NCBI RefSeq assembly: GCF_009761675.1
Contig: NZ_QUZH01000012.1
Location: 62,001-126,000 of the forward strand
Origin: Bhargavaea sp. CC-171006
GTDB taxonomy: Bacteria; Bacillota; Bacilli; Bacillales_A; Planococcaceae
DNA length: 64,000 nt
Reading direction: 5' to 3'
The translations under genes and the position numbers were made by a program. Position 1 is the stretch's first letter. Every line of letters starts with the position of its first letter. The notes beneath the pieces are model-generated. The model did not search any database and was not told the origin of the DNA. It saw only the letters and a list, made by a program, of their open reading frames with translations. Of this stretch, positions 12,540 to 56,770 are shown piece after piece.

Positions 12540-12644
12540 GAGTCGTTGATGATCTTCATTGAGACGTTGCGATATTTCATTGAGACGTTAACATACTCTA
12601 CTGAGACGTTGCGATACAGGAATGAAACGTTGACATAGCCAACG
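12540..12644. repeat. Array 1: five direct units with an exact 21-base period
   Basis: Units begin at 12540, 12561, 12582, 12603 and 12624. The core is GAGACGTTG (GAGTCGTTG in the first, GAAACGTTG in the last), followed by a partly conserved CGATA/ACATA word and a variable remainder. The array lies precisely between the terminator of the YdaT-like gene and that of the convergent acyl-CoA synthetase gene, so neither operon needs to transcribe it. Confidence 0.9.
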
Positions 12645-12653
12645 TTCCGCACC

Positions 12654-12688
12654 AAAAAAACCGTCCCGGCACCATGCCAGGACGGTTT
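12654..12688 (-). terminator. Terminator of the acyl-CoA synthetase gene
   Basis: ACCGTCCCGGC / GCCAGGACGGT stem, read leftward into seven Ts. Confidence 0.85.
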
Positions 12689-12693
12689 CCCCT

Positions 12694-14337
12694 TTAATTC
12701 GCCCCGATGCCGGTGCGTTCCTCGGACATCTCGCGAAGCTTGAATTTCTGGATCTTGCCAGATGCGGTCATCGGGTATTCGTCGATGAATTCGATGTACC
12801 GCGGAATCTTGTGATAGGAGATCTTTCCTTTGCAGTACTCGCGGATCGACTCTTCCGTCTCCTCCGCGCCGGCCTTCAGGATGATCCAGGCCATGAGTTC
12901 TTCGCCGTATTTCGGATCGGGTACGCCGACAACCTGGACGTCACTCACAGACGGGTGTGTATAAAGGAATTCCTCGATCTCTCGCGGATAAATGTTTTCC
13001 CCTCCGCGGATCACCATGTCCTTGATGCGTCCCGTGATATCGATGTACCCGTCTTCGTCCATGACGGCGATGTCGCCGGTATGGAGCCAGCCGTCGCTGT
13101 CGATCGCCTGGCGGGTGGCATCTTCATTATTATAGTAGCCTTTCATGACGTGGTAACCGCGTGTGCACAACTCACCGGGTTCACCCTGCGGAACTTCCTT
13201 GCCTGTCACCGGGTCGATAATCTTCACTTCGACATACGGGTGCGGCTTGCCGACTGTCGCCACACGCTTTTCGATCGGATCATCCGTTGTGGTCTGCGTG
13301 ATGACTGGCGACGACTCCGTCTGGCCGTAGCAGATGGTGATTTCATCGGCCCCCATTTCGTTGATCACTTGCTTCATCACCTCGATCGGACAGGTGGAGC
13401 CGGCCATGATGCCCGTCCGGAGAGAGGATGTGTCAAAGTTCTTGAACTCCGGATGCTGGAGCTCGGCGATGAACATCGTCGGCACGCCATTGAGCGCGGT
13501 GCACTTTTCATCCTGCACGGCTTTTAGCACAGTGAGCGGGTTAAACTGCTCGACAATCACGGAGGTGGATGCGTGCGTGACCGCAGTCAGGGTGCTGAGC
13601 ACACAGCCGAAGCAGTGGAAAAACGGCACCGGGATGCAAAGGCGGTCCTTTTCGGTCAGCTTCATCCGGTCGCCGATCAACTGCGCGTTGTTGACGATGT
13701 TGTTGTGCGTCAGCATGACGCCCTTCGGGAAGCCCGTTGTCCCCGACGTGTACTGCATGTTGATGGCATCCTCCGGATCCAGCGAGCGGAATACCTCTTC
13801 CAGCTCTTCATCAGATACTCCACCGGCCTTTGCCTCGAACTCGGACCACTTGAACATCCCCGGCTCGTCTCGCTCCGTCATGAGGATGATGCGTTTCAGA
13901 TGCGGGAGGTTCTTGCACGAGATCTCACCCTTTTCCGAGACCTCCGCCTCCGGACATACTTGTCGGATGATGTCGATATAGCTTGTCCCCTTGAACCCTT
14001 CATCCAGGATCAGCGTCGTAGACTCGGACTGCTTCAGCAGGTACTCGAGTTCCGCCGCCTGATAGTTGGTATTCACCGTCACGAGCACGGCCCCCATCTT
14101 GCCGGTCGCAAATTGGCTCAAAAACCACTGGCGCTTGTTGTCGCTCCAGATGGCGACATGTTCCCCTTTTTTAATCCCCATACCGAGATATGCCTTCGCC
14201 AGACGGTCCGTCTCTTCGTCGAATTCCCGGTACGTTTTACGGATTCCGTGTTCCGGATAGACGTAGGCTTCCACATCAGGGAACTCCCGTGCCTTTTCCC
14301 GGACTACCTCTCCGACGGTTTTGTTGAGCAGTGCCAT
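12694..14337 (-). CDS. AMP-forming acyl-CoA synthetase (fatty acid/short-branched acid CoA ligase)
   Basis: Adenylates a carboxylic acid and transfers it to CoA; 547 residues, ANL superfamily. The phosphate-binding loop reads YTSGTTGFPKG, followed by A5 motif ITICYGQTESSP, A7 GWLHTGDIAVMDEDGY, A8 GRIKDMVIRGGENIYPREIEE and C-terminal catalytic lysine region PMTASGKIQKFKLRE. Length and motifs match the YngI/AcsF type of Bacillus. Substrate chain length is not readable. Stands alone between a repeat array and a glutamate-synthase-like gene. Confidence 0.9.
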   Translation of the reverse strand: MALLNKTVGEVVREKAREFPDVEAYVYPEHGIRKTYREFDEETDRLAKAYLGMGIKKGEHVAIWSDNKRQWFLSQFATGKMGAVLVTVNTNYQAAELEYLLKQSESTTLILDEGFKGTSYIDIIRQVCPEAEVSEKGEISCKNLPHLKRIILMTERDEPGMFKWSEFEAKAGGVSDEELEEVFRSLDPEDAINMQYTSGTTGFPKGVMLTHNNIVNNAQLIGDRMKLTEKDRLCIPVPFFHCFGCVLSTLTAVTHASTSVIVEQFNPLTVLKAVQDEKCTALNGVPTMFIAELQHPEFKNFDTSSLRTGIMAGSTCPIEVMKQVINEMGADEITICYGQTESSPVITQTTTDDPIEKRVATVGKPHPYVEVKIIDPVTGKEVPQGEPGELCTRGYHVMKGYYNNEDATRQAIDSDGWLHTGDIAVMDEDGYIDITGRIKDMVIRGGENIYPREIEEFLYTHPSVSDVQVVGVPDPKYGEELMAWIILKAGAEETEESIREYCKGKISYHKIPRYIEFIDEYPMTASGKIQKFKLREMSEERTGIGAN

Positions 14338-14412
14338 CCAAACGCCCCCTTGAAATCGTTTTCAACAGTATGTTACCACATTTTTCTGATGGTTTAGAAA
14401 CTTTATTTGGAA

Positions 14413-14443
14413 CAAAAGATGACGCCGCCCCTCAGGACGGCGT
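14413..14443 (-). terminator. Probable terminator of the glutamate-synthase-like gene
   Basis: Leftward ACGCCGTCC / GGGGCGGCGT stem followed by TCATCTTTT; weaker T-run than the others. Confidence 0.5.
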
Positions 14444-14452
14444 GTTCATCAT

Positions 14453-16042
14453 TTATCGCACACTCAGATGTTCGTCATGGGCATGCACAGGATGTGCACG
14501 GCCTCTTTCATCCATGTAGACAAGGTGGCTCCGGTTCAGCTTCGTCGGAGAATCCAGACCGGCCGCCGCCGCAATACGGAAAAGGCCTTCGCGCATCGTA
14601 AGGATATAATTCGTGACACGGTACTTTTTCTCATCCACGACAAGTGCGCGCTGCAGGTCCTCATCGGTTGTAGCCACACCTGCCGGGCATTCATTCGTAT
14701 GGCATTTCAGCGCCATGATGCAGCCGACGGAAATCATGAAGCCGCGGGCAACCTGGACGAGATCCGCTCCGAGCGCAAGCGCGATGGCGGCTTTGTCCGG
14801 AGTCGTGATCTTGCCCGAGGCGATGATCTTCACCCTGTCGCGCACTCCATGCTCTTGAAGCGAATCATCGAGGATTGTGAGTGCCGTCTTGATCGGCAGG
14901 CCCAGACTGTCTGCCAGGTCCTGATAGGTCGCACCGGAGCCGCCTTCCGATCCGTCAACCGAGATAAAGTCCGGACCCTTTCCGGTTTTCTTCATCCATC
15001 CTGCCAATTCATCGGCCTCGCTTTTGCTGCCGATGACCACCTTGATGCCGACGGGCTTTCCTCCGACCTCGCGGATCTGTTCGATAAACTCGAACATCGA
15101 CGGATAGTCATCGAACTCGCGGAATCGGTTCGGGCTGTTGATTGTCGTATACGGCTCGACGGTCCGGATTTTCGCGATTTCTTCGGTCACCTTCTCCCCC
15201 TCGACGTGGCCGCCGCGCATCTTCGCGCCCTGGGCAAGCTTCAGCTCAAATGCCCTCACATTCGGAATGGCGGCCTTCTCCTTCACCTTTTCAATATCGA
15301 ATTCCCCTTCAGGCGTCCGGTAGCCGAACAGACCAGAGCTGATTTGCGCGATGATTTCAGGCCCACCCGACAGATGATGGTCCGATAGACCGCCCTCGCC
15401 CGTGTTCATCCAGGCACCTTTTGCCATGCCGATCCCTTTGGACAAAGCGGTGATGGCGTTTTTGCCGAGCGACCCGAAACTCATCGCCGACTGGCCGAGC
15501 AGGCTGCGCACATGAAACGGCTCCCGGCAATCCGGTCCGATCACAACCGCATCATCCGGGGGCAGCAGCCACGGCAGCGCCGGAATTTCTTCCGTATGCT
15601 CACGGCGCGTAAACAGGCCCTCATCATCAATCACATAATGGCGGGTATCGACAAGATCGGAATTGTCGACGCGCATTTCTTCATTCTGCTTGGTGAACAT
15701 GGCATTGCGGATATAATAGCCGGGCGCTTCAAAGTCCCGTTTTGACCCGAAGCCGATCAGCGAGCTTTTGTACTTGCCGGGAAGTACCATATGCAGGTAC
15801 TCCTCCCGGCTGAACGGCTTTCCGCTGTTGTCATCGGAGAACAGATACTGCCTGAACTCGGGTCCCGTCCTTTCGAGAAAATAGCGGACACGCCCAAGAA
15901 TCGGGAAATTCCGCAGGATGGAGTGCTGCTTTTGCCCGCGGTCATAGAAAAATAGCCAGATCAGCGTCACAATCGGCACGACGACGAGCAGGATAAACAG
16001 GATCATCGCCGTCAGCGACACATTTTCAAAAAAAGTGCTCAC
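14453..16042 (-). CDS. FMN-binding glutamate synthase-family protein, membrane-anchored (YerD-like)
   Basis: 529 residues. One N-terminal membrane helix (about residues 8-30, LTAMILFILLVVVPIVTLIW) precedes a stand-alone GltB-type FMN barrel: GSLGKNAITALSKGIGMAKGA, GEGGLS, SVDGSEGGSGAT, and the cysteine region CHTNECPAGVAT. No glutaminase domain or GltD partner is nearby, so glutamate synthesis by itself is unlikely; the true substrate is unknown. The start is GTG at 16042, nine bases after GGGGAG; a TTG seven codons upstream overlaps the ribosome site. Confidence 0.85.
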   Translation of the reverse strand: MSTFFENVSLTAMILFILLVVVPIVTLIWLFFYDRGQKQHSILRNFPILGRVRYFLERTGPEFRQYLFSDDNSGKPFSREEYLHMVLPGKYKSSLIGFGSKRDFEAPGYYIRNAMFTKQNEEMRVDNSDLVDTRHYVIDDEGLFTRREHTEEIPALPWLLPPDDAVVIGPDCREPFHVRSLLGQSAMSFGSLGKNAITALSKGIGMAKGAWMNTGEGGLSDHHLSGGPEIIAQISSGLFGYRTPEGEFDIEKVKEKAAIPNVRAFELKLAQGAKMRGGHVEGEKVTEEIAKIRTVEPYTTINSPNRFREFDDYPSMFEFIEQIREVGGKPVGIKVVIGSKSEADELAGWMKKTGKGPDFISVDGSEGGSGATYQDLADSLGLPIKTALTILDDSLQEHGVRDRVKIIASGKITTPDKAAIALALGADLVQVARGFMISVGCIMALKCHTNECPAGVATTDEDLQRALVVDEKKYRVTNYILTMREGLFRIAAAAGLDSPTKLNRSHLVYMDERGRAHPVHAHDEHLSVR

Positions 16043-16170
16043 GTTACGTTTCTCCCCTTTCAATATGTATTTCCGGATACTGCAGACCTCTGAAATTGTT
16101 TACCCTAAAACTCTTTTGATAAGCTAAGGTGTGATGTATGAACAGATAAATTTGAAAGGGGTCTTTATTA

Positions 16171-16902
16171 ATGGTCTTAGATCTTCTTGCCTCCCACTCG
16201 TCAGTCCGGGATTACGAGGACGTCACACTCTCCCGGGAAACGGTCGAGCGGCTCGTCAGCGCCGGACAGCATGCGGCCAGTTCCCACTTTGTCCAGGCGT
16301 ATTCGGTCATCCACGTGACCGATCCGGCCAAGCGCGAGGCACTCGCAGAGCTCTCGAAAAACCCGAAGCAGTTCCTGACTGCCGGCGCGGCACTCGTTTT
16401 CTGTATGGATTTCCGCCGGCTGACAGCAGCGGCAGGCCTTCAGAACGAGGAAATCGTCTACTCGAACGCCGAGGCGCTTGTCGTCGGCGTGACGGATACG
16501 GCACTGTTTGCACAGAACGTTGCGGTTGCCGCAGAATCAGAAGGCTACGGCATCTGCTATATCGGCGGTGTGCGGAATGCACCCGAAGAAATCAGCGAAG
16601 TCCTCGGTTTGCCGGAAGGTGTTGCACCACTCTATGGCATGACCATCGGCGTGCCGAAGTTCCGCAACGAAGTGAAGCCGCGCCTGCCTGTCGCTTCCAT
16701 CTTGCATGAGAATGAGTACAATAGTGAAAAGTATGAAGAGCAGCTTCCGGAATACGACCGGACGATGAACGACTATTATCTGAACCGCGGAAGCAACCGG
16801 AAAGACGCCACCTGGTCAGGCGACATGGCGGCATTCCTCAAGGAACCGCGCCGTATGCATCTGAAGGAATTCCTCGCCAAGCAGGGATTCCGGTTCGAAT
16901 GA
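16171..16902 (+). CDS. NADPH-dependent flavin/nitroreductase (NfsA/NfrA family)
   Basis: FMN oxidoreductase of 243 residues reducing nitro compounds, quinones or flavins. It opens with the family segment LLASHSSVRDYEDV, in which the SxR residues contact FMN; GYGICYIGGVRNAPEEISEVLGLP is the second FMN-binding region. The C-terminal RMHLKEFLAKQGFRFE is typical of NfrA1. ATG at 16171 follows AAAGGGG. Followed 39 bases later by the methyltransferase gene. Confidence 0.9.
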   Translation: MVLDLLASHSSVRDYEDVTLSRETVERLVSAGQHAASSHFVQAYSVIHVTDPAKREALAELSKNPKQFLTAGAALVFCMDFRRLTAAAGLQNEEIVYSNAEALVVGVTDTALFAQNVAVAAESEGYGICYIGGVRNAPEEISEVLGLPEGVAPLYGMTIGVPKFRNEVKPRLPVASILHENEYNSEKYEEQLPEYDRTMNDYYLNRGSNRKDATWSGDMAAFLKEPRRMHLKEFLAKQGFRFE

Positions 16903-16941
16903 TCTGAAATGAACGAATCCCTATAAGAAAGGAGGCCTCCT

Positions 16942-18120
16942 ATGGAATTTGAGGAAATGATTGATGCGCTGGCGTCCCGCATGGCGAACGGCACGCTGGT
17001 AAAGGCGACGATCAGCCAGCCGCGCCATAAAACCGAGGAACTGAAGCGCATCAGAATCAAATCCGTTGAACTTCGGGAAGAACTCCATATCCAGTTCGAA
17101 TATCAGTATGAACGCATCCTGAAGCACGAAAATGTGCCTGCAGATAAAGTCCGCCCTGTCCTTGACGAACTGCTCCGCACGTTCCGGCAAGTGCAAGCTA
17201 CCTTCACCGGTGAAGAAGTGCAGGTCAGGCTTTCGAAGAAGCTGAAGGTCTCCTGGAAGACCGAACAGACTGATACGAAAGCGGAACCGAACCTCTCCCA
17301 TAACCGAAAAAAGCAATACATCCTTGAAGAGGGGACGCCGTATCCGTTTCTCGTGCAGCTCGGTGTGCAGACCGAGGACGGGAAAGTGAAAAAGGGCAAA
17401 ATGGACAAGTTCCGGCAGATCAACCGGTTCACCGAGTATATTGCCGACAGCCTCGCCCATCTGCCGACGGACCGGACAATCCGCATCCTCGATTTTGGTT
17501 CGGGCAAGTCGTATCTGACGTTTGCCCTTTACCACTATCTGAGGATCGAAAAGGAACTCGACGTACGGGTCACCGGACTCGATCTGAAAAAAGAAGTGAT
17601 CGAGGAATGCCGGCAGATCGCCGCTGATCTCGGATACGGGGACGACCTGGAGTTTCTCGTCGGTGACATCAACGATTATAATGATGAAACTGCAGTCGAC
17701 ATGGTCGTGACACTGCATGCTTGCGACGTTGCGACCGACATGGCGCTTGCCCGCGCGGTGCGTTGGGAAGCGGATGTCATTTTGAGCGTGCCGTGCTGCC
17801 AGCACGAACTGTTCGGCCAACTGGACTCTCCGGAACTCGGTGTCATGCTGCAGCATGGGCTCATCAAGGAACGCTTCGCGGCGCTCGCAACAGACTCGAT
17901 TCGCGCCGAGTTGCTGAGTCTGCTCGGGTACGACGCGCAGCTTCTGGAATTCATCGACATGGCGCACACGCCGAAAAACATCATGATCCGTGCCTATAAA
18001 ACCGGAAAGACTGCAGGCTCGGAGCGGGTGACCCGCTACAAAGCCTTCCGGAATATGCTCGGCGCGGAACCGTTCATGGAACGGGAACTGAAAAAAGAAC
18101 TCGCTCCGGTGCTTGGATGA
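16942..18120 (+). CDS. Class I SAM-dependent methyltransferase (Methyltransf_32/METTL25-like)
   Basis: 392 residues. An N-terminal domain of about 165 residues of unknown role precedes a Rossmann methyltransferase core with motif I ILDFGSGKSYLTFAL, GLDLKKEVIEEC, VTLHACDVATD and the unusual SVPCCQHEL. The last two are characteristic of the METTL25/RRNAD-like group, whose likely substrates are RNA or protein. The start follows AAAGGAGG inside a self-complementary AGGAGGCCTCCT. It lies in a possible operon between the nitroreductase and purine phosphorylase genes. Confidence 0.8.
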   Translation: MEFEEMIDALASRMANGTLVKATISQPRHKTEELKRIRIKSVELREELHIQFEYQYERILKHENVPADKVRPVLDELLRTFRQVQATFTGEEVQVRLSKKLKVSWKTEQTDTKAEPNLSHNRKKQYILEEGTPYPFLVQLGVQTEDGKVKKGKMDKFRQINRFTEYIADSLAHLPTDRTIRILDFGSGKSYLTFALYHYLRIEKELDVRVTGLDLKKEVIEECRQIAADLGYGDDLEFLVGDINDYNDETAVDMVVTLHACDVATDMALARAVRWEADVILSVPCCQHELFGQLDSPELGVMLQHGLIKERFAALATDSIRAELLSLLGYDAQLLEFIDMAHTPKNIMIRAYKTGKTAGSERVTRYKAFRNMLGAEPFMERELKKELAPVLG

Positions 18121-18199
18121 GGATTCCGCGTATGCGGGCGGGGGTATCAAACTTGTAGGAAGCGGGCGGTTCTGCCGCCGCAGAAGAGGAGAGATTCAA

Positions 18200-20881: not shown

Positions 20882-20986
20882 TTTCGTAGCGGCATGGGAT
20901 GGGTTCGCGGCGGCAACGTGCAATTTCACGACCGCAACTCACAGTTTCACGACCGCAACTCACCATTTCGCGGCGGCTCTGATTTT
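20882..20986. repeat. Array 2: five direct units with an exact 21-base period
   Basis: Units begin at 20882, 20903, 20924, 20945 and 20966. The third and fourth share TTTCACGACCGCAACTCAC; the outer ones carry TTTCG(C/T)(G/A)GCGGC variants. The array lies between the leftward lipoprotein terminator and the upstream side of the Dph6-like gene. Confidence 0.88.
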
Positions 20987-20995
20987 ATTGCATAT

Positions 20996-21685: not shown

Positions 21686-21871
21686 TTTCGTCATTCACCG
21701 GTTTGATTTCGTCATTCGCGTCTCCGATTTCGTCATTCAGCTTCCCAATTTCGTCATTCGCGTATGTCCCGATGATGAATGACGAGACTGAAGGACCGAA
21801 TGACGAGATTCTGGCCACGAATGACGAGATTACCGGTCTGAATGACGAAACCGCCCCCCGCCATCACGAAA
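21686..21871. repeat. Array 3: 21-base-period array in two opposing orientations
   Basis: Four units TTTCGTCATTC begin at 21686, 21707, 21728 and 21749. After an 18-base centre, their reverse complement GAATGACGA(G/A)A begins at 21777, 21798, 21819 and 21840, with a decayed fifth unit at 21861. Every step is exactly 21 bases within each half. The two halves could pair as one long hairpin or cruciform. It sits between the fumC terminator and the lipoprotein promoter region, filling most of a 346-base gap that holds no gene. Confidence 0.92.
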
Positions 21872-25612: not shown

Positions 25613-25696
25613 GAGTCTTCACATTGGCCGGCCGAGATTACACAATCAGTCCGCGAGATTACACATTGACGTTGGGAAATTACACATTCCCGCCCC
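25613..25696. repeat. Array 4: four direct units with an exact 21-base period
   Basis: Units begin at 25613, 25634, 25655 and 25676. The core is GAGATTACACA (GAGTCTTCACA in the first, GAAATTACACA in the last) with variable remainders. It occupies the middle of the divergent gap between the ABC operon and the GtrA gene, away from both ribosome sites. Confidence 0.88.
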
Positions 25697-25748
25697 GGTT
25701 CATCCGAGCACCCCAAGGGTATGGAACATTAAAAAAGGAGGTGCGGCC

Positions 25749-29394: not shown

Positions 29395-29423
29395 TTGCAA
29401 TGATCTGGATGGGCTGTTATGAT
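29395..29423 (+). promoter_or_regulatory. Sigma-A promoter of the cold-shock gene
   Basis: TTGCAA (29395-29400), 17-base spacer, TATGAT (29418-29423) preceded by TGT as an extended -10. Start near 29430 gives a leader of about 120 bases, typical of cold-shock mRNAs that control their own translation. Confidence 0.78.
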
Positions 29424-29549
29424 GTAGAAGAATTATTTTTGTTCGGCAATGACGTTCGGGTGGAATTCTCTTCATCCTGACACATCAAGACTTGAGCAAG
29501 GATAGTAACACACGTGTGCCGGACGATGGCACGCAAGGAGGAAACAAAC

Positions 29550-29750
29550 ATGGAACAAGGTAAAGTAAAATGGTTTAACGCAGAAAAGGGCTTCGGTTTC
29601 ATCGAGCGCGAAGATGGCGACGATGTATTCGTACACTTCTCCGCTATCCAGCAAGACGGGTTCAAGTCCCTTGATGAAGGTCAAGAAGTAGAATTCGAAA
29701 TCGAAGAAGGCCCACGCGGTCTTCAAGCTGCGAACGTCGTAAAAATGTAA
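29550..29750 (+). CDS. Cold-shock protein (CspA/CspB family)
   Basis: 66-residue single OB-fold binding single-stranded nucleic acid, an RNA chaperone. RNP1 KGFGFIE and RNP2 VFVHFS are intact. ATG at 29550 follows CAAGGAGGAAAC; twelve in-frame codons upstream belong to the leader. Its codon use is biased as in highly expressed genes. Followed by a strong terminator. Confidence 0.96.
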
Positions 29751-29767
29751 TCCATTTAACGACTGCT

Positions 29768-29803
29768 AAAAACGCCGTCTCCTCCGGGAGACGGCGTTTT
29801 TTT
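29768..29803 (+). terminator. Terminator of the cold-shock gene
   Basis: AACGCCGTCTCC / GGGAGACGGCGTT stem with A-run before and seven Ts after; may serve the convergent gene too. Confidence 0.9.
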
Positions 29804-39072: not shown

Positions 39073-40218
39073 ATGAGAGCAGTGACGATTCATGGCGCAA
39101 AAGACATCCAGGTCAAGAATGTGGACGCCCCGAAAATCGAGAAAGACGATGACATCATCATCCGCGTCACCTCCACCGCCATCTGCGGCTCGGACCTGCA
39201 CATCTACGCAGGCTCCATCATGACCCGTCCCGGATATATCATCGGCCATGAGCCGATGGGCATCGTCGAAGAAATCGGTCCCGCCGTCACAAAAGTGAAA
39301 AAGGGCGACCGGGTCGTCATTCCGTTCAACGTTGCCTGCGGGGAATGCTGGTACTGCACACATGACATGGAGAGCCAGTGCGAACACCCCGAGTCCAATC
39401 CGACACCAGGCACCGACTTCGCCGGCTATTTCGGTTATACGGAGATGTTCGGCAACCACCCGGGCGGACAGGCCGAATATATGCGCGTGCCGTTCGGAAA
39501 CTTCCTGCCGTTTGTCATCCCGGAATCTGCCGAAGTCCCTGACGAAGCAGTCCTCTTCATGTCGGACGTCCTCCCGACCGCCTACTGGAGCGTGCTCCAC
39601 TCCGGCGTGAAAAAAGGGGATACTGTGATCGTTCTCGGATGCGGCCCAGTCGGCCTCATGACCCAGAAATTCGCCTGGATGATGGGCGCCAAGCGCGTCA
39701 TCGGTGTCGATCATGTTCCGTACCGCCTGGCTAAGGCGAGAGAAATGAACAAAGTCGAGACCGTCACCTATCGCGATCCGAACGAGACAGGCGACTATCT
39801 GAAGGAACTTACCTCCGGCGGTGCCGATGTCGTCATCGACTGTGTCGGGATGGACGGTGAAAAAACGGCTCCCGAGAAGGTCCAGCAGAAGCTTAAGGTC
39901 CACGGCGGATCGCTCACAGCGCTGCGCACCGCCCACCGTGCCGTCCGCCGCTTCGGCACCGTCCAGCTCACCGGCGTTTACGGCCTCTGGTATAACGCAT
40001 TCCCTCTAGGCCGATTTTTCGAACGGAATGTCACCATCAAAACCGGGCAGGCTCCCGTGCCTCACTTGATGCCGGAATTGTTCAAGATGATCACGGAACA
40101 CAAAATCGATCCGACCGAGATCATCTCGCATATTGTCCCGCTTGAAGAAGCGCCGATTGCTTATAAGACGTTTTATGAGCATGGGGACGAATGCACGAAA
40201 GTGATTCTGAAACCATAA
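39073..40218 (+). CDS. Zinc-dependent alcohol dehydrogenase, copy 1 (YycR-like)
   Basis: Medium-chain dehydrogenase, 381 residues. Catalytic-zinc ligands in ICGSDLH and GHEPMG; structural-zinc cysteines in ACGECWYCTHDMESQC; NAD-binding VIVLGCGPVGLMTQ. Resembles glutathione-independent formaldehyde dehydrogenases and B. subtilis YycR; substrate uncertain. ATG follows AAAGGAGGAG. First of a tandem pair with period 1336 bases. Confidence 0.92.
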   Translation: MRAVTIHGAKDIQVKNVDAPKIEKDDDIIIRVTSTAICGSDLHIYAGSIMTRPGYIIGHEPMGIVEEIGPAVTKVKKGDRVVIPFNVACGECWYCTHDMESQCEHPESNPTPGTDFAGYFGYTEMFGNHPGGQAEYMRVPFGNFLPFVIPESAEVPDEAVLFMSDVLPTAYWSVLHSGVKKGDTVIVLGCGPVGLMTQKFAWMMGAKRVIGVDHVPYRLAKAREMNKVETVTYRDPNETGDYLKELTSGGADVVIDCVGMDGEKTAPEKVQQKLKVHGGSLTALRTAHRAVRRFGTVQLTGVYGLWYNAFPLGRFFERNVTIKTGQAPVPHLMPELFKMITEHKIDPTEIISHIVPLEEAPIAYKTFYEHGDECTKVILKP

Positions 40219-40408: not shown

Positions 40409-41554
40409 ATGAGAGCCGTAACATTCCAAGGTGCAAAGGACATCCAGGTAAAAAACGTCGATGCACCGAAAATAGAAAAAGACGACGATATTATCATCCG
40501 CGTCACCTCGACCGCGATCTGCGGGTCGGACCTGCACATCTACACAGGGGCCATGATGACACGGCCGGGATACGTCATCGGCCATGAACCGATGGGCATC
40601 GTCGAGGAAGTAGGACCTTCCGTTACGAAGGTGAAAAAAGGCGACCGGGTCGTCATCCCGTTCAACGTTGCCTGCGGTGAATGCTGGTACTGCACGCATG
40701 ACATGGAAAGCCAGTGCGAGCATCCTGAGACGAACTCGACGCCGAACACCGATTTCGGGGGCTATTTCGGATTTACGGAATTGTACGGCAATCATCCGGG
40801 CGGCCAGGCCGAGTACATGCGCGTACCGTTCGGCAACTTCCTGCCGTTTGTCATCCCGGAATCGGCGGAGGTTCCTGACGAAGCGGTTCTCTTTATGTCC
40901 GACGTTCTCCCGACCGCTTACTGGAGTGTCCTCAACTCCGGCGTGAAGAAAGGCGACACCGTCGTTGTGATGGGCTGCGGTCCGATCGGCCTCATGACCC
41001 AGAAGTTCGCGTGGATGATGGGCGCCAAGCGGGTCATCGGCGTCGACAACGTTCCATATCGCCTGGCAAAGGCGAGGGAGATGAACAAAGTCGAGACGGT
41101 CACCTACACGGATCCGAACGAGACGGGCGACTATCTCAAAGAACTCACACACGGCGGTGCCGATGTCGTCATCGACTGCGTCGGCATGGACGGAGAAAAG
41201 ACTGTCCCCGAGAAGATCCAGCAAAAACTGAAGGCTTCTGGCGGATCACTTACTGCTCTCCGCACCGCCCACCGTGCCGTCCGCCGCTTCGGAACCGTCC
41301 AGCTTACCGGTATTTACGGTCTTTGGTACAACGCCTTCCCGCTCGGCCGTTTCTTCGAGCGCAACGTCACGATCAAGTCCGGGCAGGCACCTGTCCCGCA
41401 TCTGATGCCGGAACTGTTCAAGATGATCACTGAACACAAACTTGATCCGACCGAGATCATTTCCCATATCGTCCCGCTTGATGAAGCGCCGATCGCTTAT
41501 CAGACGTTCTATGAGCATGGGGACGAATGCACGAAAGTGATTCTGAAACCGTAA
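40409..41554 (+). CDS. Zinc-dependent alcohol dehydrogenase, copy 2
   Basis: 381 residues, differing from copy 1 at 31 positions (about 92% identical) with no gap. All zinc and NAD motifs are conserved. Changes cluster around residues 112-130 (PESNPTPGTDFAGYFGYTEMF versus its counterpart), a region near the structural-zinc lobe, which may alter specificity. Same AAAGGAGGAG ribosome site; the duplicated unit includes about 100 bases upstream. Confidence 0.92.
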   Translation: MRAVTFQGAKDIQVKNVDAPKIEKDDDIIIRVTSTAICGSDLHIYTGAMMTRPGYVIGHEPMGIVEEVGPSVTKVKKGDRVVIPFNVACGECWYCTHDMESQCEHPETNSTPNTDFGGYFGFTELYGNHPGGQAEYMRVPFGNFLPFVIPESAEVPDEAVLFMSDVLPTAYWSVLNSGVKKGDTVVVMGCGPIGLMTQKFAWMMGAKRVIGVDNVPYRLAKAREMNKVETVTYTDPNETGDYLKELTHGGADVVIDCVGMDGEKTVPEKIQQKLKASGGSLTALRTAHRAVRRFGTVQLTGIYGLWYNAFPLGRFFERNVTIKSGQAPVPHLMPELFKMITEHKLDPTEIISHIVPLDEAPIAYQTFYEHGDECTKVILKP

Positions 41555-46414: not shown

Positions 46415-46504
46415 TTCAATCATCCTCCTTCCTTTGGAGGATGGTCAAGGCGGGGAAAAGGTATTCAGTGAGCCGTGGAAATCAGATAGGCAAGCACGGA
46501 GAAA

Positions 46505-46744
46505 TCGGACTTAGCACGGTCGGTTCGGACTTACAAGGTTGATTTCGGACTTAGAATGCCGGAATCGGACTTAGCCGCAGGATTTCGGATTTATGGGGAG
46601 ATTTTCGGAGTAGGGGCTTCAATTCCGGAGTATCCGGTTTGGTTTCGTATTTATTCTCACGACATCGTAGGATGGCAGCGATTTTCGGAATAAGACTCGG
46701 GTTTTCGTAGTATCCAGTACAAAATTGTATTTACATCCGGTATT
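46505..46744. repeat. Array 5: twelve direct units with an exact 20-base period
   Basis: Units start at 46505, 46525, 46545 and so on to 46725. The core begins as TTCGGACTTA and drifts along the array (TTCGGATTTA, TTCGGAGTAG, TTCGTATTTA, ATCGTAGGAT, ATTGTATTTA). The remainder of each unit is variable. Because 20 is not a multiple of three, no reading frame can carry a repeated peptide. Confidence 0.92.
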
Positions 46745-46800: not shown

Positions 46801-47040
46801 TTGCAATTACACCGCCCATGGGTCATTTTTGTCCCCCATGTGGCAATTCCGCACCCCATGCGGCAATTCTCCACTCCTTGTTTCAACTCCCCGCTCTTTA
46901 TTTCAACTCCCCGCTCCTTATTTCAACTTCCCACTCCTTATTTCAATTCCCTGCTCCTTATTTCAATTCTCACCTCCTTATTTCAATTCCCACCCCCTTA
47001 TTGCAACTTCCCACTCCTAATCTCACCATCCCGATCTCTT
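46801..47040. repeat. Array 6: twelve direct units with an exact 20-base period
   Basis: Units start every 20 bases from 46801 to 47021. The middle units are nearly identical (core TTTCAACTCCCC or TTTCAATTCCC followed by a CTCCTTA end) and the outer units are increasingly diverged, as expected of tandem expansion. It is separated from array 5 by about 55 bases without visible repeats, and with it fills a 679-base gap that holds no gene. Confidence 0.92.
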
Positions 47041-50352: not shown

Positions 50353-50434
50353 TTACCTATATTAGGATAAAGGAAACACCGTCCGGATACAATCATATGA
50401 GTCGGTTGTCACACTTTATCCATTTTCATTCTGC

Positions 50435-50462
50435 TATACTGGATTTACTGACCGACCGGTCA
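50435..50462. promoter_or_regulatory. tetR -10 element and operator 2
   Basis: TATACT at 50435-50440 and, from 50449, the near-palindrome TGACCGACCGGTCA, matching operator 1 in both outer arms. The operator covers the likely start point of the regulator gene, implying autoregulation. Confidence 0.65.
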
Positions 50463-50479
50463 AAGGAGGACCAAAGCCC

Positions 50480-51370
50480 ATGAACGAAACCAAGAAGCGC
50501 ATCATCGAAGCGGCAATCGCCCTTTTCACGGAAAAAGGGTTCCACGGTACCTCGATCCAGGAAATCGCCGCGCATGCCGGAATTTCCAAAGGCGCCTTCT
50601 ATCTTCACTTTAAATCAAAGGATGCTCTCCAAGTGGAGATTTTCAGATACTACACCTCGCTGATCCAGGAGGAAATGGTAAATGCCATCGATCCCGGTCT
50701 TTCCCCGGAGGAGAACTTCCGGCGTCAGACGGAGATCCAGATCGCCCAAATGCAGAGACATACCGACTTTATCGTCATGGTCATCCGCGAGCAGGCATAT
50801 AGCCTGAATCCCGAGCTTATCGAATTCATCGAGGAACTCCGGATCTCGCAGTCCGAGTGGTACCGCGATCAGCTCACTTCCATATACGGCGAGTCGATCC
50901 GGCCGTTCGTCCATGATATCTATGTCATCACAGAAGGCATCAAGAGCCACTATATGCAGCATTTCATCTCGAATCCACAAGCTTTGAATCCCGAAGGCCT
51001 GACAGAACTCATCTTCAGGATGACTGCACAGGCAGCAGAGGGCTTTCTCGGCGGCACCCTCCGCCCGCTTCTGGATGAAGAAACCTTGCGGACGCTGTTT
51101 TCCGGATTTTTCCCCGAAGAAGGGGAATCGGAAGAGTTGACCGGGGTGATTGACGCCATGCGGACCATCTTGTACGGACAGGCCCTACCCCGTGCGACTG
51201 TCCAGTACCTGCTGTCGACCCTGGACTTTCTTGAAGTGCAGGCCCAAGCCGGTCCCGGTGCCGATCTCACAGCCATAGAGGGAGCCCTCGCCATTTTCCG
51301 CCCCTACCCGGAATTCGGGGATTGCCTTCGCCTTCTGGAGGAAAAGTTTGGGGCGGATATGCATAATTAA
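50480..51370 (+). CDS. TetR/AcrR-family regulator of the RND pump (YerO-like)
   Basis: 296 residues, longer than usual for TetR. N-terminal HTH IIEAAIALFTEKGFHGTSIQEIAAHAGISKGAFYLHFKSKDAL (residues 8-51), then a ligand-binding helical domain and an extra C-terminal helical region (after about residue 190). Start after CAAAGGAGGACC. The divergent arrangement with swrC and paired operators indicates repression of both genes until a pump substrate binds. Confidence 0.92.
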   Translation: MNETKKRIIEAAIALFTEKGFHGTSIQEIAAHAGISKGAFYLHFKSKDALQVEIFRYYTSLIQEEMVNAIDPGLSPEENFRRQTEIQIAQMQRHTDFIVMVIREQAYSLNPELIEFIEELRISQSEWYRDQLTSIYGESIRPFVHDIYVITEGIKSHYMQHFISNPQALNPEGLTELIFRMTAQAAEGFLGGTLRPLLDEETLRTLFSGFFPEEGESEELTGVIDAMRTILYGQALPRATVQYLLSTLDFLEVQAQAGPGADLTAIEGALAIFRPYPEFGDCLRLLEEKFGADMHN

Positions 51371-51397
51371 CGGATCCGGCGATGCGATCTGTCCAAT

Positions 51398-51436
51398 CAA
51401 AAAGCACCTGCCCATTTCCGGGCAGGTGCTTTTTTC
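51398..51436. terminator. Terminator between tetR and purC-like genes
   Basis: AAAAAGCACCTGCCC / GGGCAGGTGCTTTTTT, strong in both directions. Confidence 0.92.
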
Positions 51437-51444
51437 GTATCCGC

Positions 51445-52128
51445 TCACCCGAACAGCAGCTGTTCGAGTTGGAGCGGTTCGATGTATTCTCCGTTTTTGT
51501 AGACGCGCATATTGCCCCCGGAGATCTCATCGATCAGGAGGACTTCGCCGGTTTCTGCGTCGCGTCCGAATTCAAGCTTGATGTCATACAGTTCCATGCC
51601 GCGGGCGGCGAGTTCGTCCTTCACGACACCGGAAATCTGTTTGGTCAGTTCTTTAAGCGTGTCATACTCATCCGCATCCAGGATGCCAAGCTCGACAAGG
51701 GCATCTTTGCTGATTGGCGGGTCCTGGCGCTCATCGTCCTTGATCGTCACCTCGACGAATGCGTCAAGCGGCTGTCCTTCTTCCGCATAGGCACCGTAGC
51801 GGCGCAGGAAGCTTCCGACTGCCCGGTAGCGGCAGATCACTTCAAGCCCTTTGCCGAACACGTCCGCTTTCCGGACGTTCATTGTCTGGTCATCAACATC
51901 CGCGCCGAGAAAGTGTGTCGGAATACCGGCCTCGGCCAGCTTTCCGAAAAAGTATTCGGTCATTCGGAGGCCGGCGCGGCCGGCACCCTCGATTGTCAGG
52001 CCAACCGTGTTGGCACCCGGGTCGAACACTCCGTCTTCACCGGTCACATCATCTTTGAACTTCAGCTGGATCGTCCCGTCCTCCAGCTCATAGACATCCT
52101 TTGTCTTGCCTTCGTAAATCCGCTTCAC
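51445..52128 (-). CDS. purC: SAICAR synthase-like protein (divergent, stand-alone PurC)
   Basis: 227 residues. YEGKTKDVYELEDG, DGVFDPGANTVG, VICRYRAVGSFLRRYG and LYDIKLEFG place it in the PurC family, which joins CAIR and aspartate in purine synthesis. The usual DEISPDTCRLWD signature is replaced by DEISGGNMRVYKNG, and no other pur gene is near, so it may be a second paralogue or have altered activity. The start is GTG at 52128 after GAGGTGG; an ATG ten codons upstream lacks a ribosome site. TATAAT lies on the minus strand near 52160. Confidence 0.8.
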   Translation of the reverse strand: MKRIYEGKTKDVYELEDGTIQLKFKDDVTGEDGVFDPGANTVGLTIEGAGRAGLRMTEYFFGKLAEAGIPTHFLGADVDDQTMNVRKADVFGKGLEVICRYRAVGSFLRRYGAYAEEGQPLDAFVEVTIKDDERQDPPISKDALVELGILDADEYDTLKELTKQISGVVKDELAARGMELYDIKLEFGRDAETGEVLLIDEISGGNMRVYKNGEYIEPLQLEQLLFG

Positions 52129-52214
52129 GCAGTCCACCTCTTTCGGCTGATCTGACATAATTATAACCGAAAGACGAACATTATGAAATGATTGTATAGA
52201 TATTTTACGCCTTT

Positions 52215-53255
52215 TCACTCTTCTGCCGTTTCACCGGTCACCCGATTCCGGCCGGTTCGCTTGGAATGGTACATCCGCTCATCAGCCCTGTTCAGCAAGC
52301 GCTCCGGCGTGTCCCCGGGCAGCTCGCCCGCGACGCCGAAGCTCGCGGTCACTTTATCCGCCTTCCCGAAGTGATGGGAACCGATGGCTTCACGAAGACG
52401 CTCCGCAAGCGCCATCGTGTCCGGGAGCTCTGCATCTGTGATAATGATGAATTCCTCACCGCCCCACCGGCCGAACAGATCCCCCGGCCCAAGTTGCGAT
52501 CGCACAAGGTCCGCCATCTGCCTCAGCACATCATCCCCCGTTTTATGACCATACTCATCGTTCACACTCTTGAAATGGTCCATGTCGAAGAGGATGATCG
52601 AGAACTCGGTGCCTTCCTGGTCCGCCCGTTCCGCCTTTTCCGCTAGCCACTCATCGATCCGGTGGCGGTTCGCCGCCCCGGTAAGGGCATCGATATAGGC
52701 AAATCGGGCAATCGCCCGCTGCTCCGCACGTCTCCGATAAAGGATGTGGAGGAAAAACGACAGCAGCGTGTAGACAAACAGGCTTATGTAAAGCGTGATC
52801 AGCGAATTAATCTGACTGTCCGTCAGTCTGCCCCATACAGGGATGGCCGGCGCGATCATGAAGAGAAGCAGTGTGAAGCAGGCAATGACCGCCTGCTTCC
52901 GCTCAAGGATAAGAAAGCCAAGGACGACGACAAGCGGCATATAAAGAATGAAATCTCCAAGCCGCGGCTCGCCCTGTGCCAGCATATCGATAAACAGCGA
53001 GCTTAGGATCGCCGCAAGCAGGTAGATGAGGGAGATGATCAGGATGAGGATTTCCGGAACGGCAAGCGGAAACCGTGTCCAAAGAAGCCCCCAGCAGATC
53101 ATGATTCCGACAAGCAGGATGAAGTTGATGATCTGAACCGGACGGATCTCATCGGTGATCAGAAGATTCAGCGCAAGAGACGCGGCGACGACCGGCAGGA
53201 CGAACAGGTACACACGCCTCTTCTGCTCTTCGAACCGCTTTTGCTCACTTCCCAT
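52215..53255 (-). CDS. Membrane-bound diguanylate cyclase (GGDEF), copy A
   Basis: 346 residues: about six N-terminal helices (residues 16-175) then a GGDEF domain (about 185-340). Active-site loop RWGGEEF is intact and FDMDHFKSVND carries the metal-binding Asp; YIDALTGAANRHRID is the domain entry. Expected to make cyclic di-GMP in response to a membrane signal. No RxxD inhibitory site is visible before the loop. The ATG at 53255 follows GGAAGGGGGAGGG. Downstream paralogue of the next gene. Confidence 0.9.
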   Translation of the reverse strand: MGSEQKRFEEQKRRVYLFVLPVVAASLALNLLITDEIRPVQIINFILLVGIMICWGLLWTRFPLAVPEILILIISLIYLLAAILSSLFIDMLAQGEPRLGDFILYMPLVVVLGFLILERKQAVIACFTLLLFMIAPAIPVWGRLTDSQINSLITLYISLFVYTLLSFFLHILYRRRAEQRAIARFAYIDALTGAANRHRIDEWLAEKAERADQEGTEFSIILFDMDHFKSVNDEYGHKTGDDVLRQMADLVRSQLGPGDLFGRWGGEEFIIITDAELPDTMALAERLREAIGSHHFGKADKVTASFGVAGELPGDTPERLLNRADERMYHSKRTGRNRVTGETAEE

Positions 53256-53280
53256 TTCCCTCCCCCTTCCAAAGCCCTGT

Positions 53281-54330
53281 TCACCCATCTCCGCTCACCA
53301 TTGTGCGCCCGGTCACACGGTTCCTGCCGGCTTGCTTGGCATGATACATGCGCTCATCGGCCCGCGATACGACCGATTCCGCAGTGTCGCCGGGACGGTT
53401 GACCGACAGGCCGAAACTGGCGGTCACACGGCCTGCGATTCCGAAGTCATGATCCTCCAACGCCTTCCGCAGCCGCTCCGCAAGCCGGAAAGATTCCTCC
53501 TCCCCCGTGTCGGTCAGGACGACAAACTCTTCACCGCCCCACCTTCCAAACAAGTCACCATGATCAAGCTCCTCCCCGACCACTTTTGACAGCTGCCGCA
53601 GCACATCATCACCTGTTTTGTGCCCGTAGATATCATTGATGTCCTTGAAGTTGTCCAGGTCGAAAAAGATGAGCGAGAACAGCTTTCCGGTCTCCTCCCC
53701 GAGCTCGACCTTCTTCCTCAGCCAGGTGTCGATCCGGTGCCGGTTCGCAATGCCCGTCAGTGCGTCAACGTAGGCGAAACGCAGCATTGCGTTTTGTTCG
53801 GCACGCGTTCTGTAAAGCTGGTGGAGGAAATAAGCAAGGCTTGTGTAGACCACGATCCCCGAATAAAACAGGATCAGTGACTCGTTCTGCTCCGGATTCA
53901 GGCGCGGGAATGCCGGCACTGCCGGAAGCACCAGGACGGTGAAGAGGGCAAGGTTTGCGATCAGTGCGGGCCACCTGTCAAAGAGGAGAAACATCAGCAG
54001 GGAGATCATCGGCATCCAGACGATGAAGTCCCCAAGAGACGTCTCGCCGTGACCCAGCATCTGCGTGTAGACTCCCTGGACAACCATCGTGAGCAGATAG
54101 ATTCCCGCAAGGGTGAGCAGGAACCATTCAATGACACGGAGCGGGAGTTTCGTTGACAAGAAAAGCCAGGCGAACAGCATTCCGACCAGCAGGATGAGGT
54201 TGATCGTCAGGAGCAGTCCCTTGTGAGCCGACATAAACAGGCTCAGTCCCAGCGAAACCGTCAGCACCGGCAGGACGATTTTATAGACACGCCGCTTCAT
54301 ATTCATGAACCGTTGCTGTTCGGTATCCAT
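53281..54330 (-). CDS. Membrane-bound diguanylate cyclase (GGDEF), copy B
   Basis: 349 residues with the same layout as copy A and about half identical by eye: six helices, then GGDEF with RWGGEEF, FDLDNFKDINDIYGHKTGDDVLR and YVDALTGIANRHRID. The ATG at 54330 follows GGAGGGAGGGG; 48 upstream codons are open without ribosome site. The two genes are 25 bases apart and form an operon of tandem duplicates. Confidence 0.9.
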   Translation of the reverse strand: MDTEQQRFMNMKRRVYKIVLPVLTVSLGLSLFMSAHKGLLLTINLILLVGMLFAWLFLSTKLPLRVIEWFLLTLAGIYLLTMVVQGVYTQMLGHGETSLGDFIVWMPMISLLMFLLFDRWPALIANLALFTVLVLPAVPAFPRLNPEQNESLILFYSGIVVYTSLAYFLHQLYRTRAEQNAMLRFAYVDALTGIANRHRIDTWLRKKVELGEETGKLFSLIFFDLDNFKDINDIYGHKTGDDVLRQLSKVVGEELDHGDLFGRWGGEEFVVLTDTGEEESFRLAERLRKALEDHDFGIAGRVTASFGLSVNRPGDTAESVVSRADERMYHAKQAGRNRVTGRTMVSGDG

Positions 54331-54487
54331 CCGCACCCCTCCCTCCAACCAGTTACTTTCCGTATTCCCCTCCGGATTGCAAAAAACGCTTTTCACAGGA
54401 AATATCTTCAGGAACTTGACGGTGGTCAAGGAAGCGGCCACCGATTCATCCGATAATGAAGACAACAAGAACAAGGGAGGAATCGAA

Positions 54488-54709
54488 ATGAAACAAGTTG
54501 TCCTTCAGATGGAAGCCCTCACTTGCCCGAGCTGCATCAAGAAAATTGAAGGTGCCCTCGGCAAGATGGACGGCGTTGAGCAGGCGAAGGTGTTGTTCAA
54601 CTCCGGCAAGGTGAAAGCCAGGTTCGACGACGGTAAAGTCAGCGCAGAAGAGATCGAAGGTACAGTGAAGAAACTCGGTTATCCGGTTCTTTCGAAGAAA
54701 GTTTCATAG
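54488..54709 (+). CDS. Heavy-metal-associated (HMA) domain protein, metallochaperone
   Basis: 73-residue ferredoxin-like fold with metal site TCPSC (Cys13, Cys16), of the CopZ type. Likely delivers metal to the P-type ATPase 33 bases downstream, which has no HMA domain of its own. ATG follows AAGGGAGGAATC. A 6-4-6 palindrome CTTGAC GGTG GTCAAG at 54415-54430 upstream may be a regulator site. Confidence 0.9.
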   Translation: MKQVVLQMEALTCPSCIKKIEGALGKMDGVEQAKVLFNSGKVKARFDDGKVSAEEIEGTVKKLGYPVLSKKVS

Positions 54710-54742
54710 CTGCCCGCCAAATCAGGAAAGGTGTGAATCAAA

Positions 54743-56647
54743 ATGACAGGCAAACAAAAAGCCTGGATCACGGCCGTCACGGGCGGCCTTCTGGTCCTGG
54801 CCATCCTCTTTCACCTGACCGGCTTACAGGAACTCAAGTCGTTTACGCTCATTTTCTCCACCGTCATCGCGGGAATACCGATCGCCCTGAAGGCCCTCCA
54901 GGCACTCCGCATGAAAGCCTTCAGCATCGAACTGCTCGTCACGATCGCCGTTGTCGGCGCCCTGTTCATCGGCGAGTATGTCGAGTCGGCTGCCGTCACG
55001 TTCCTCTTCCTGTTCGGCGCTTATCTGGAAGCCCGGACACTTGAGAAAACACGGAAATCGCTGAAAGACCTGATCGATATGGCGCCGCAGGAAGCGACCG
55101 TCATGCGGGACGGCCTCGAAAGGGTCATCCCTGCCGATGAGGTCGAAGCGGGAGACCGGGTCCTCATCCGCACGGGAGGCAAAGTGCCCGTCGACGGGCG
55201 GGTTGCCGGCGGACGTGCGCATCTGAACGAAGCCGCCATCACAGGCGAGTCTGTGCCCGCGGCAAAATCGGACGGCGACACAGTCTTCAGCGGAACGATT
55301 GTCGACAGCGGCTACCTGGAAGTCATCGCGGAAAAGACCGGTGATGACACCACGTTCGCGAGGATTATCGAACTCGTCGAAGAAGCACAGGACTCGAAGA
55401 CAAAGACCCAGCAGTTCCTTGAGAAGTTTGCGAACATCTACACACCGGGCATCATCATCCTGTCGATCATCGTTTACCTGTTCACCCGCAACATTGAACT
55501 GACGCTCACGTTCCTCGTCATCGCCTGCCCGGGCGCGCTCGTCATCTCGGCACCTGTATCGATTGTCGCCGGCATCGGCAACGGCGCGAAGAACGGCGTC
55601 CTGTTCAAGGGCGGTGAATCAGTGGAAGCCCTCGCGAAGACCGATACGGTCGTGTTCGACAAGACCGGCACGCTGACGAAAGGCCGGCCGGAAGTGACGG
55701 GGATCGATGCATTCGGCGGAGACGCCAGCCGGTTGCTCCGGATCGTTGCTGCGGCGGAAACCGCCTCGGAGCACCACCTCGGACGCACGATCGTGGAAGA
55801 AGCAGGCAGGCGCGGCTTTATCGGACTGGAACAGCCGGAAGACGTTGAAATCATCAAGGGGCATGGGCTCACCGCGATGGTCGGCGGACGTCATGTCATC
55901 GCCGGTACCCGGGAGCTGATGGCCGATAATGGCATCACTATTCCGGCGAGAGCGGACGCTGCCGCAACCGAACGCGAAAAGGCCGGCAACACGGCCATCT
56001 TCGCCGCGGTCGACGGACAGCTTCGCGGACTGATCTCCATCGCCGACCAGATCCGGCCCGAAGCGCATGACGCCATCCGCCGGCTCCGCGCAGGCGGCGT
56101 CAAGCAGATCATCATGCTCACCGGGGACAACCGCCATGCCGCTGCACTCGTCGGCAAACAGCTCGGCCTGGATGAAGTTCACGCCGAACTTCTTCCGGAA
56201 GACAAAGTAGCATTCGTGAAAAAGCTGAAAGACGCAGGGCGCCGGGTCGCGATGGCCGGCGACGGGGTCAATGACGCACCGGCGATCGCCACCGCCGACA
56301 TCGGCATCGCGATGGGCGCCGGCGGCACGGACATCTCCATGGAAACCGCGGACGTCGTGCTCATGGCCGACCGGCTCGACCAGTTCGCCCACGCCCGCTC
56401 GCTCGCCAAGGCCACCGTCCGCAACATGAAGCAGAACACCTGGTTTGCCGTCGGCACCGTCTTCCTGCTGCTCGCCGGCGTCCTGCTCGGCAAGATCTTC
56501 CTCGCATCCGGCATGCTGATTCATGAACTCAGCGTCCTGATCGTCATCCTCAACGCCATCCGGCTGGTCCGGTATAATGGCAGTAAGAAGGAACGGATGC
56601 CTGGCGGCGTGGAACCGTTCGGGCCGCAGCCGGCTATGGTGGAGTGA
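54743..56647 (+). CDS. Heavy-metal-translocating P1B-type ATPase
   Basis: 634 residues, exports or imports divalent/monovalent metal. Actuator loop AITGESVPA, membrane metal site CPGAL (Cys262; most relatives have CPC), phosphorylation DKTGTLT (Asp306), nucleotide domain SEHHLG where most relatives have SEHPL, and hinge GDGVNDAPA. No N-terminal metal domain; the separate HMA gene upstream supplies it. Metal not determinable; zinc/cadmium/cobalt group is most likely. Ends directly at repeat array 7. Confidence 0.9.
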   Translation: MTGKQKAWITAVTGGLLVLAILFHLTGLQELKSFTLIFSTVIAGIPIALKALQALRMKAFSIELLVTIAVVGALFIGEYVESAAVTFLFLFGAYLEARTLEKTRKSLKDLIDMAPQEATVMRDGLERVIPADEVEAGDRVLIRTGGKVPVDGRVAGGRAHLNEAAITGESVPAAKSDGDTVFSGTIVDSGYLEVIAEKTGDDTTFARIIELVEEAQDSKTKTQQFLEKFANIYTPGIIILSIIVYLFTRNIELTLTFLVIACPGALVISAPVSIVAGIGNGAKNGVLFKGGESVEALAKTDTVVFDKTGTLTKGRPEVTGIDAFGGDASRLLRIVAAAETASEHHLGRTIVEEAGRRGFIGLEQPEDVEIIKGHGLTAMVGGRHVIAGTRELMADNGITIPARADAAATEREKAGNTAIFAAVDGQLRGLISIADQIRPEAHDAIRRLRAGGVKQIIMLTGDNRHAAALVGKQLGLDEVHAELLPEDKVAFVKKLKDAGRRVAMAGDGVNDAPAIATADIGIAMGAGGTDISMETADVVLMADRLDQFAHARSLAKATVRNMKQNTWFAVGTVFLLLAGVLLGKIFLASGMLIHELSVLIVILNAIRLVRYNGSKKERMPGGVEPFGPQPAMVE

Positions 56648-56665
56648 AATAGACGGGGCGTTGGC

Positions 56666-56770
56666 GAATGACGAGATTGGGGAGTCGAATGACGAGATCA
56701 AGCGGCCGAATGACGAGACCGAACGGCCGAATGACGAGATTGACGGCTCGAATGACGAAATTAGGGAAAG
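56666..56770. repeat. Array 7: five direct units with an exact 21-base period
   Basis: Units GAATGACGAGAT(T/C) (last one GAATGACGAAATT) begin at 56666, 56687, 56708, 56729 and 56750. The word is the same as in the rightward half of array 3, 35 kb away. The array starts right behind the ATPase stop codon and runs to the ribosome site of the Crp/Fnr gene. Confidence 0.92.

Follow-up and report, generated by a model that had tools for sequence, protein, structure and literature searches.

Intergenic DNA of Bhargavaea sp. CC-171006 and its congeners carries a real, strongly constrained and lineage-restricted class of repeat arrays, with units of 20 or 21 bp, which fails a defining test of each known repeat family that we tried. 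The window analyzed here is a stretch of 64,000 nucleotides (positions 62,001 to 126,000 of contig NZ_QUZH01000012.1); the draft genome it comes from comprises 3.27 Mb in 32 contigs. An initial annotation had reported seven arrays of this period in the window, and all seven were recovered by Tandem Repeats Finder and a lag scan near the coordinates it had given, although the array at 21686 is a dyad of four minus and four plus units and not a simple tandem. The arrays, lettered by their repeated words, are listed below.

12526..12638, plus strand: word A array (TGARACGTTG), period 21, 4-5 units, flanked by two convergent genes.
20889..20989, minus strand: word J array (TTTCRCGACCGCAAC read on the plus strand), degenerate, period 21.
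21686..21759, minus strand: left arm of the word B dyad (TTTCGTCATTC on the plus strand), four minus units at an exact spacing of 21 bp.
21760..21776, no strand: centre of the word B dyad, 17 bp, with a start-to-start junction of 28 bp.
21777..21850, plus strand: right arm of the word B dyad (GAATGACGARA), four plus units at an exact spacing of 21 bp.
25629..25697, plus strand: word I array (GARATTACACATT), three units of period 21; the gap is divergent, which is the minority context.
46491..46574, minus strand: word K array (TTCGGACTTA on the plus strand), period 20, decaying rightwards.
46804..47037, minus strand: word E array (TTATTTCAAYTC on the plus strand, grading from CCCATGYGGCAATTC), about 11 units of period 20.
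56666..56760, plus strand: one-sided word B array (five plus units), flanked by the genes of a heavy-metal P-type ATPase and a Crp/Fnr-type regulator.

The lag scan, which scored at least 38 identities in a 63-column frame, found two clusters at lag 20 and six at lag 21 in the window and none elsewhere in lags 10-38, while the longer lags 39, 40, 42 and 60 gave one, two, four and two clusters, respectively. We then extended the scan to 443 gaps (each 80 bp or longer, 110,836 bp in total) taken from an own-genome sample and from 66-72 kb of each of seven congeners (G001-G007), after removing one own-sample stretch that was N throughout. Lags 20 and 21 gave 10 and 47 clusters and lags 40 and 42 gave nine and 40, whereas all the remaining lags within 14-45 summed to five. 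The excess at lags 20 and 21 proposed in the initial annotation was thus borne out in the sampled DNA, with 57 clusters against none in 20 dinucleotide shuffles. At this threshold 50 of the 443 gaps hold an array. Across 901 kb, of which 15% is noncoding by the calls of a simple purpose-written script that missed some genes, 64 of the lag-20/21 clusters are noncoding and four are coding. The arrays are therefore predominantly intergenic, which was the second expectation of the initial annotation to be borne out in the sampled DNA. Four of the 63 array loci lie inside predicted genes, and another six lie at stretch or contig ends. In the own-genome sample, picked regardless of arrays, about 365 kb contain 13 intergenic loci. 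Scaled up, this amounts to about 115 per genome, a figure that may be an over-count owing to contig-start sampling, as three of the 13 are at contig ends. Some arrays (L090 72-181, L092 9603-9730, and L107 168-283) are no more than about 300 bp from a contig end and may break short-read assemblies.

The words recur. Word B has 180 copies in its own genome against two of the reversed control, and it is found 66-132 times in five congeners, eight times in G002 and six times in G004 (reversed control 0-3). Word A has 51 copies (reversed control 9) and word E (TTATTKCAAYT) has 29 (reversed control 4), both counted in the own genome, and by our reading about ten different words are used across the own arrays. 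G002 has a word of its own, GARTCCCTACCTT, with 23 copies, which is absent from the remaining seven genomes of the genus. Because the same words recur at several loci, and G002 has its own, the words belong to a lineage rather than to one locus; the locus-specific words initially described do not hold, since the arrays at 21686 and 56666 share word B. Around word-B matches we retrieved 17 stretches, of which 14 hold an array and three hold isolated words only. A two-unit word-B pattern had no match in viral contigs, and the single dyad array used as a query had none in plasmids. Word A occurs in both orientations within a single contig, and therefore the arrays have no general replication polarity. 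Six own word-E array loci, that at 46804-47037 included, are all plus on stretches of negative GC skew, which raises a possible replication polarity of this word, the six being few and non-independent, with isolated word-E copies on other contigs (five minus, one plus) set aside.

Word B allows the unit to be dissected into site, spacer and pitch. In 20 arrays with 125 units, fully read from own DNA, the site is Y-GAATGACGARA-YY (Y GAATGACG A R A YY), of 12-14 bp. Ten core columns carry 1.4-2.0 bits (90-100% one base), and the seven spacer columns that follow carry at most 0.31 bit. Four further core columns vary, nearly always as R or Y, three being near-even C/T and one 72:28 A/G, and transversions do not exceed 3%. 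Spacer identity, out of eight positions, is 2.23 within an array and 2.39 between arrays, where composition alone predicts 2.43. Of 91 tandem intervals 89 equal 21, and 12 of 14 minus-to-plus junctions measure 28. Spacer likeness at the level of composition together with fixed intervals indicates that the length of the spacer is kept and its sequence is not. The 17-bp centre has no conserved sequence beyond the flanking pyrimidine in 11 centres.

The same geometry extends to five genomes, for which we used the 400 positions among the matches listed (643 exist, and the orthologous loci are non-independent). The tandem interval is a multiple of 21 in 216 of 219 cases, and dyad junctions follow 28+21k within 1 bp in 52 of 59; six of the other seven are near 28+10.5+21k, a half-unit class spotted only after inspecting the data, so that 58 of 59 equal 28 plus a whole number of helical turns to within 1.5 bp. 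Clusters with at least two copies contain both orientations in 58 of 84 cases, commonly laid out as minus units, 17 bp and plus units. The plus-to-minus order was seen twice, at 100 and 103 bp, once between two neighbouring dyads of locus L194 (all these counts again among the matches listed). Those dyads (2994-3158 and 3227-3391) are 233 bp apart with most spacers in common, which is a whole-array local duplication. Helical phasing beyond the period itself, as anticipated in the claim that every core faces the same side of the helix, is supported because the intervals stay multiples of 21 despite randomised-looking spacers and because the junctions deviate by whole turns.

An orthologous dyad provides a measure of constraint. 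The gap between fumC and the PCYCGC-protein gene holds a word-B dyad in G001, G003, G006 and G007 and no array in G005 and G004. With the own copy as reference and the congeners in the order G003, G001, G006 and G007, invariant core positions differ at 0/80, 1/80, 2/70 and 4/50 (total 7/280), the R/Y core positions at 6/32, 10/32, 10/28 and 4/20 (total 30/112, with 29 of the 30 being transitions), and the spacers with the centre at 8/57, 19/57, 21/52 and 12/38 (total 60/204, with 30 of the 60 being transitions). Four-fold sites of fumC differ by 0.26, 0.26, 0.18 and 0.26 in the four congeners. From these counts, spacers drift about like silent sites and cores hardly change.

This contrast bears on one alternative, namely that slippage makes neutral tandem repeats of 20-21 bp which gene conversion partly homogenises. 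Units are indeed duplicated, as some arrays of relatives have, by eye, near-identical spacers and alternating 40/42-bp units, and the number of units varies by whole units. However, the core of the orthologous array changes more than 10-fold more slowly than its spacers, clusters are concentrated at two lags and their doubles, and homogenisation is not expected to leave near-even C/T and 72:28 A/G positions nearly free of transversions. Such R/Y-only variation fits recognition and not homogenisation, and we regard neutral repeats as quite improbable.

The arrays also occupy a preferred place relative to genes. By gap type (gaps of different congeners being partly orthologous), 11 array loci lie in 67 convergent gaps, 35 in 33 of the 243 co-directional gaps, and seven in 135 divergent gaps. 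Arrays are scarcer in divergent gaps (7/135 versus 44/310 of the others; p=0.006 per gap, 0.004 per locus). Among the 20 word-B arrays, eight are convergent, 12 are co-directional (one inside a predicted gene) and none is divergent. In 51 entries from the 63 loci (two adjacent pairs merged, and six edge and four in-gene loci excluded), the median array starts 46 bp past a 3' end and lies 96 bp from a 5' end. A terminator-like hairpin stands between the gene 3' end and the array in 36 of 55 cases, compared with seven of 47 control 5' sides. Six one-sided word-B arrays have no fixed orientation to transcription (three sense, two antisense and one convergent), and cores in co-directional gaps show no strand preference, with 14 sense and 11 antisense among the 27 of 35 loci entered, after removal of one row without a conserved column and one tie.

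Conserved sites, tolerance limited to R or Y, free spacers of rigid length and turn-quantised junctions together point to recognition of double-stranded DNA by a protein in contact with its neighbours along one face, in the manner of iteron-binding Rep proteins (PMC4980987). Accounting for these patterns, the arrays are probably rows of sites at which sequence-specific proteins bind double-stranded DNA and assemble cooperatively. A unit would comprise a 12-14 bp site and a free filler, the filler setting a pitch of two turns, and protomers, once bound, would thus line up along the same face of the DNA in contact with one another. Word B would mostly form two opposed rows around the 17-bp centre, and the rows would stand just past gene 3' ends, ahead of the promoter region of the next gene. 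We infer that the reader of the words is a protein and not a guide nucleic acid. The location past gene 3' ends hints at a further step, more doubtful than binding itself, in which the bound filament might insulate neighbouring transcription units, by blocking read-through or holding supercoils, or else bridge such loci. The insulator, nucleoid-protein and supercoil roles named in the initial annotation may be viewed in the same manner.

Several observations weigh against this proposal. No binding protein for the words was identified, and about ten words in one genome would need many specificities or a highly adaptable reader. The test of selection is one orthologous array, and its four comparisons have common ancestry. 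Arrays of period 20 on DNA of 10.5 bp per turn would drift by about 34 degrees per unit. As regards insulation, terminator-like hairpins are not enriched before arrays over own 3' ends in general (99/172 within 80 bp, in gaps of at least 80 bp; p=0.35), which qualifies the initial description of arrays beyond terminators. The array at 56666 lies between two close co-directional genes, 18-22 bp from each, with no terminator found between; hence the suggested separation of operons is a tendency and not a rule.

Finally, the word-B dyad as RNA is predicted to form a very stable hairpin (-86.5 kcal/mol, z -11), a long structure that also argues for another explanation, in which the arrays act as RNA elements in transcripts, such as hairpins, decoys or Rho-type signals. 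The plus strand of the word-E array, which is not the gene-sense strand and is C-rich, G-poor and unstructured when folded, would suit such a role too. Nevertheless, the one-sided word-B array (56652-56771) is predicted to fold no better than shuffles (z -0.66), and spacers show no excess pairing across the dyad (4.69 of 10 versus 5.20 when shuffled, in 26 spacer pairs). RNA needs no exact 21-bp pitch, and the lack of strand preference relative to transcription argues against a role in the RNA sense. A hairpin in the RNA may play a part in the case of the word-B dyad, but by these folding predictions not in that of the one-sided array or the folded word-E strand, and we consider an RNA role for the arrays as a whole unlikely.

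Arrays recur at the same gaps in congeners, as the initial annotation had proposed to examine, but the word sometimes differs. The one-sided array at 56666 has the same word in G001, G003 and G006 and a different one in G004. In each of the six congeners in which the word-E gap could be resolved, it contains an array. The word-J gap, from the 3' end of the PCYCGC-protein gene to a diphthine-ligase-like gene, has an above-threshold array in G005 and G007; in G003 and G006 fainter traces are visible by eye, and G001 and G002 have none. Matched by eye, as were all the words at shared gaps, word I is the same in G003, G005, G006 and G007 and different in G001. The fumC/PCYCGC-protein gap of G002 holds a period-21 array of about 11 units with a different word; the sodC gap has period-20 arrays in four near congeners and two other words at period 21 in G002 and G004; and the GtrA gap in G001, like the Fnr-type regulator gap at 56666 in G004, carries another word. 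Among syntenic gaps of the distant congeners (G002 and G004), an array is present in four of seven where the own genome has one against three of 32 otherwise (p=0.012; the counts are small and gap length is uncontrolled), and the near congeners give 15 of 27 against four of 122.

Different words at shared gaps could be expected if an RNA or DNA guide read the words, which would explain both their number and their easy swapping, and G:U wobble would permit variable core positions that are nearly always R or Y. Against such a guide, the five other A positions of the core are hardly ever G (at most 2%), and the TnpB-type domain PF07282 is found in 0/8 genus genomes versus 6/14 controls, other guide systems not having been searched for. 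We hold this explanation to be very unlikely.

The lineage range was surveyed in 80 fumarase loci, grouped by record titles (a Sulfuricurvum-labelled locus, L080, was binned with other Bacilli). The best fumarase matches among the contigs searched are from Sporosarcina at 83% identity, and near records may be missing. Noncoding lag-20/21 clusters number 10 in eight Sporosarcina loci (162 kb) and four in five Lysinibacillus loci (107 kb), and there are none in seven loci of other family members (141 kb) or in 60 loci of Paenibacillaceae, other Bacilli and Exiguobacterium (1.22 Mb). With a looser threshold, clusters also appear in five non-family loci (L024, L025, L026, L058 and L068), whereas the stricter noncoding threshold leaves none there. 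The array words in the surveyed loci differ again from the own words. Two Sporosarcina arrays (L007 286-664 and L002 1799-2279) have near-identical or alternating spacers and look young, growing by duplication of one or two units. We tentatively suggest that in several Caryophanaceae/Planococcaceae genera the 3' ends of genes might bear docking arrays as markers, conserved in format (two-turn pitch and position) but with a word that is rewritten by lineage; fast-changing DNA-binding proteins might co-evolve with about a hundred arrays, like eukaryotic satellites and their binding proteins.

Known systems resemble the arrays in part. Plasmid iterons (RK2, P1, and R6K) are described as direct repeats of 17-22 bp bound by Rep monomers, with binding cooperativity lost when two iterons are half a helical turn apart (PMC4980987). 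The likeness lies in direct repeats at whole-turn pitch, as word B exemplifies and period-20 words fit less well. However, the arrays here are chromosomal, carry many words, and lie mostly past gene 3' ends at many dispersed intergenic loci instead of a replication origin. The Rep_3-type initiator (Rep3_N, PF01051) is found in 0/8 genus genomes versus 2/14 controls.

Miniature mobile repeats of the REP/REPIN type, copied by a transposase and without a role for the host, share with the arrays dispersed extragenic copies, lineage-specific words and, for word B, inverted pairs. REPINs are similar in look (PMC3116915), and BIME-2 elements are reported to attract gyrase (PMC6379681). The 14-bp core of word B, however, is neither palindromic nor self-complementary; the pitch is fixed at 21 bp, with random spacers that do not pair across the dyad, and the one-sided array folds like shuffled sequence. 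Chance-level spacer likeness between arrays shows that they are not recent block copies, bar the L194 pair. The RAYT domain Y1_Tnp (PF01797) is found in 0/8 genus genomes, which are draft assemblies, versus 5/14 controls, and PF07282 is absent likewise, other transposases not having been searched for. An origin as such mobile repeats is accordingly improbable in our judgement. With Y1_Tnp, Rep3_N and PF07282 each in 0/8 genus genomes, RAYT, Rep_3 and TnpB proteins were ruled out as an explanation.

The STAR elements of staphylococci come close in arrangement, being intergenic direct-repeat arrays with a conserved motif, locus-distinct spacers and no assigned function (PMC3532100). They consist of one 14-bp word (motif TNTGTTGNGGCCC) with spacers of 40-44 bp, and the same study reports that no STAR neighbourhood common to two species was found (PMC3532100). 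The arrays likewise combine a conserved word with variable spacers, but their units measure 20-21 bp and carry different words (no search was made for the STAR motif as such), and their gaps are often shared between species with the word changed. TAACTGA heptamers of Beggiatoaceae are similarly abundant intergenic direct repeats, of one heptamer which in the main genome lies mostly just upstream of start codons (PMC4679880). Among the matches listed in open-licence papers on bacterial repeats, we found no description of these arrays.

Two further features of the window deserve mention. The Rfam search of the window gave one match only, a cspA thermoregulator (29422-29801, plus strand; 88.9 bits) that overlaps a predicted gene of 201 bp (29550-29750) and is unrelated to the arrays. 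Two alcohol-dehydrogenase-like proteins (named by eye) of 381 aa are encoded in tandem (39073-40218 and 40409-41554, plus strand) and are 92% identical.

If the proposal that proteins assemble on the arrays is true, they would represent an undescribed layer of bacterial chromosome organisation with an unusually clean signature, as sites, spacers and pitch are separable by rates of change alone, and would offer a genetic handle on insulation or bridging at gene ends in Gram-positive bacteria. In essence, the words rewritten between lineages would then be a natural word-swap series for studying how DNA-binding specificity evolves.

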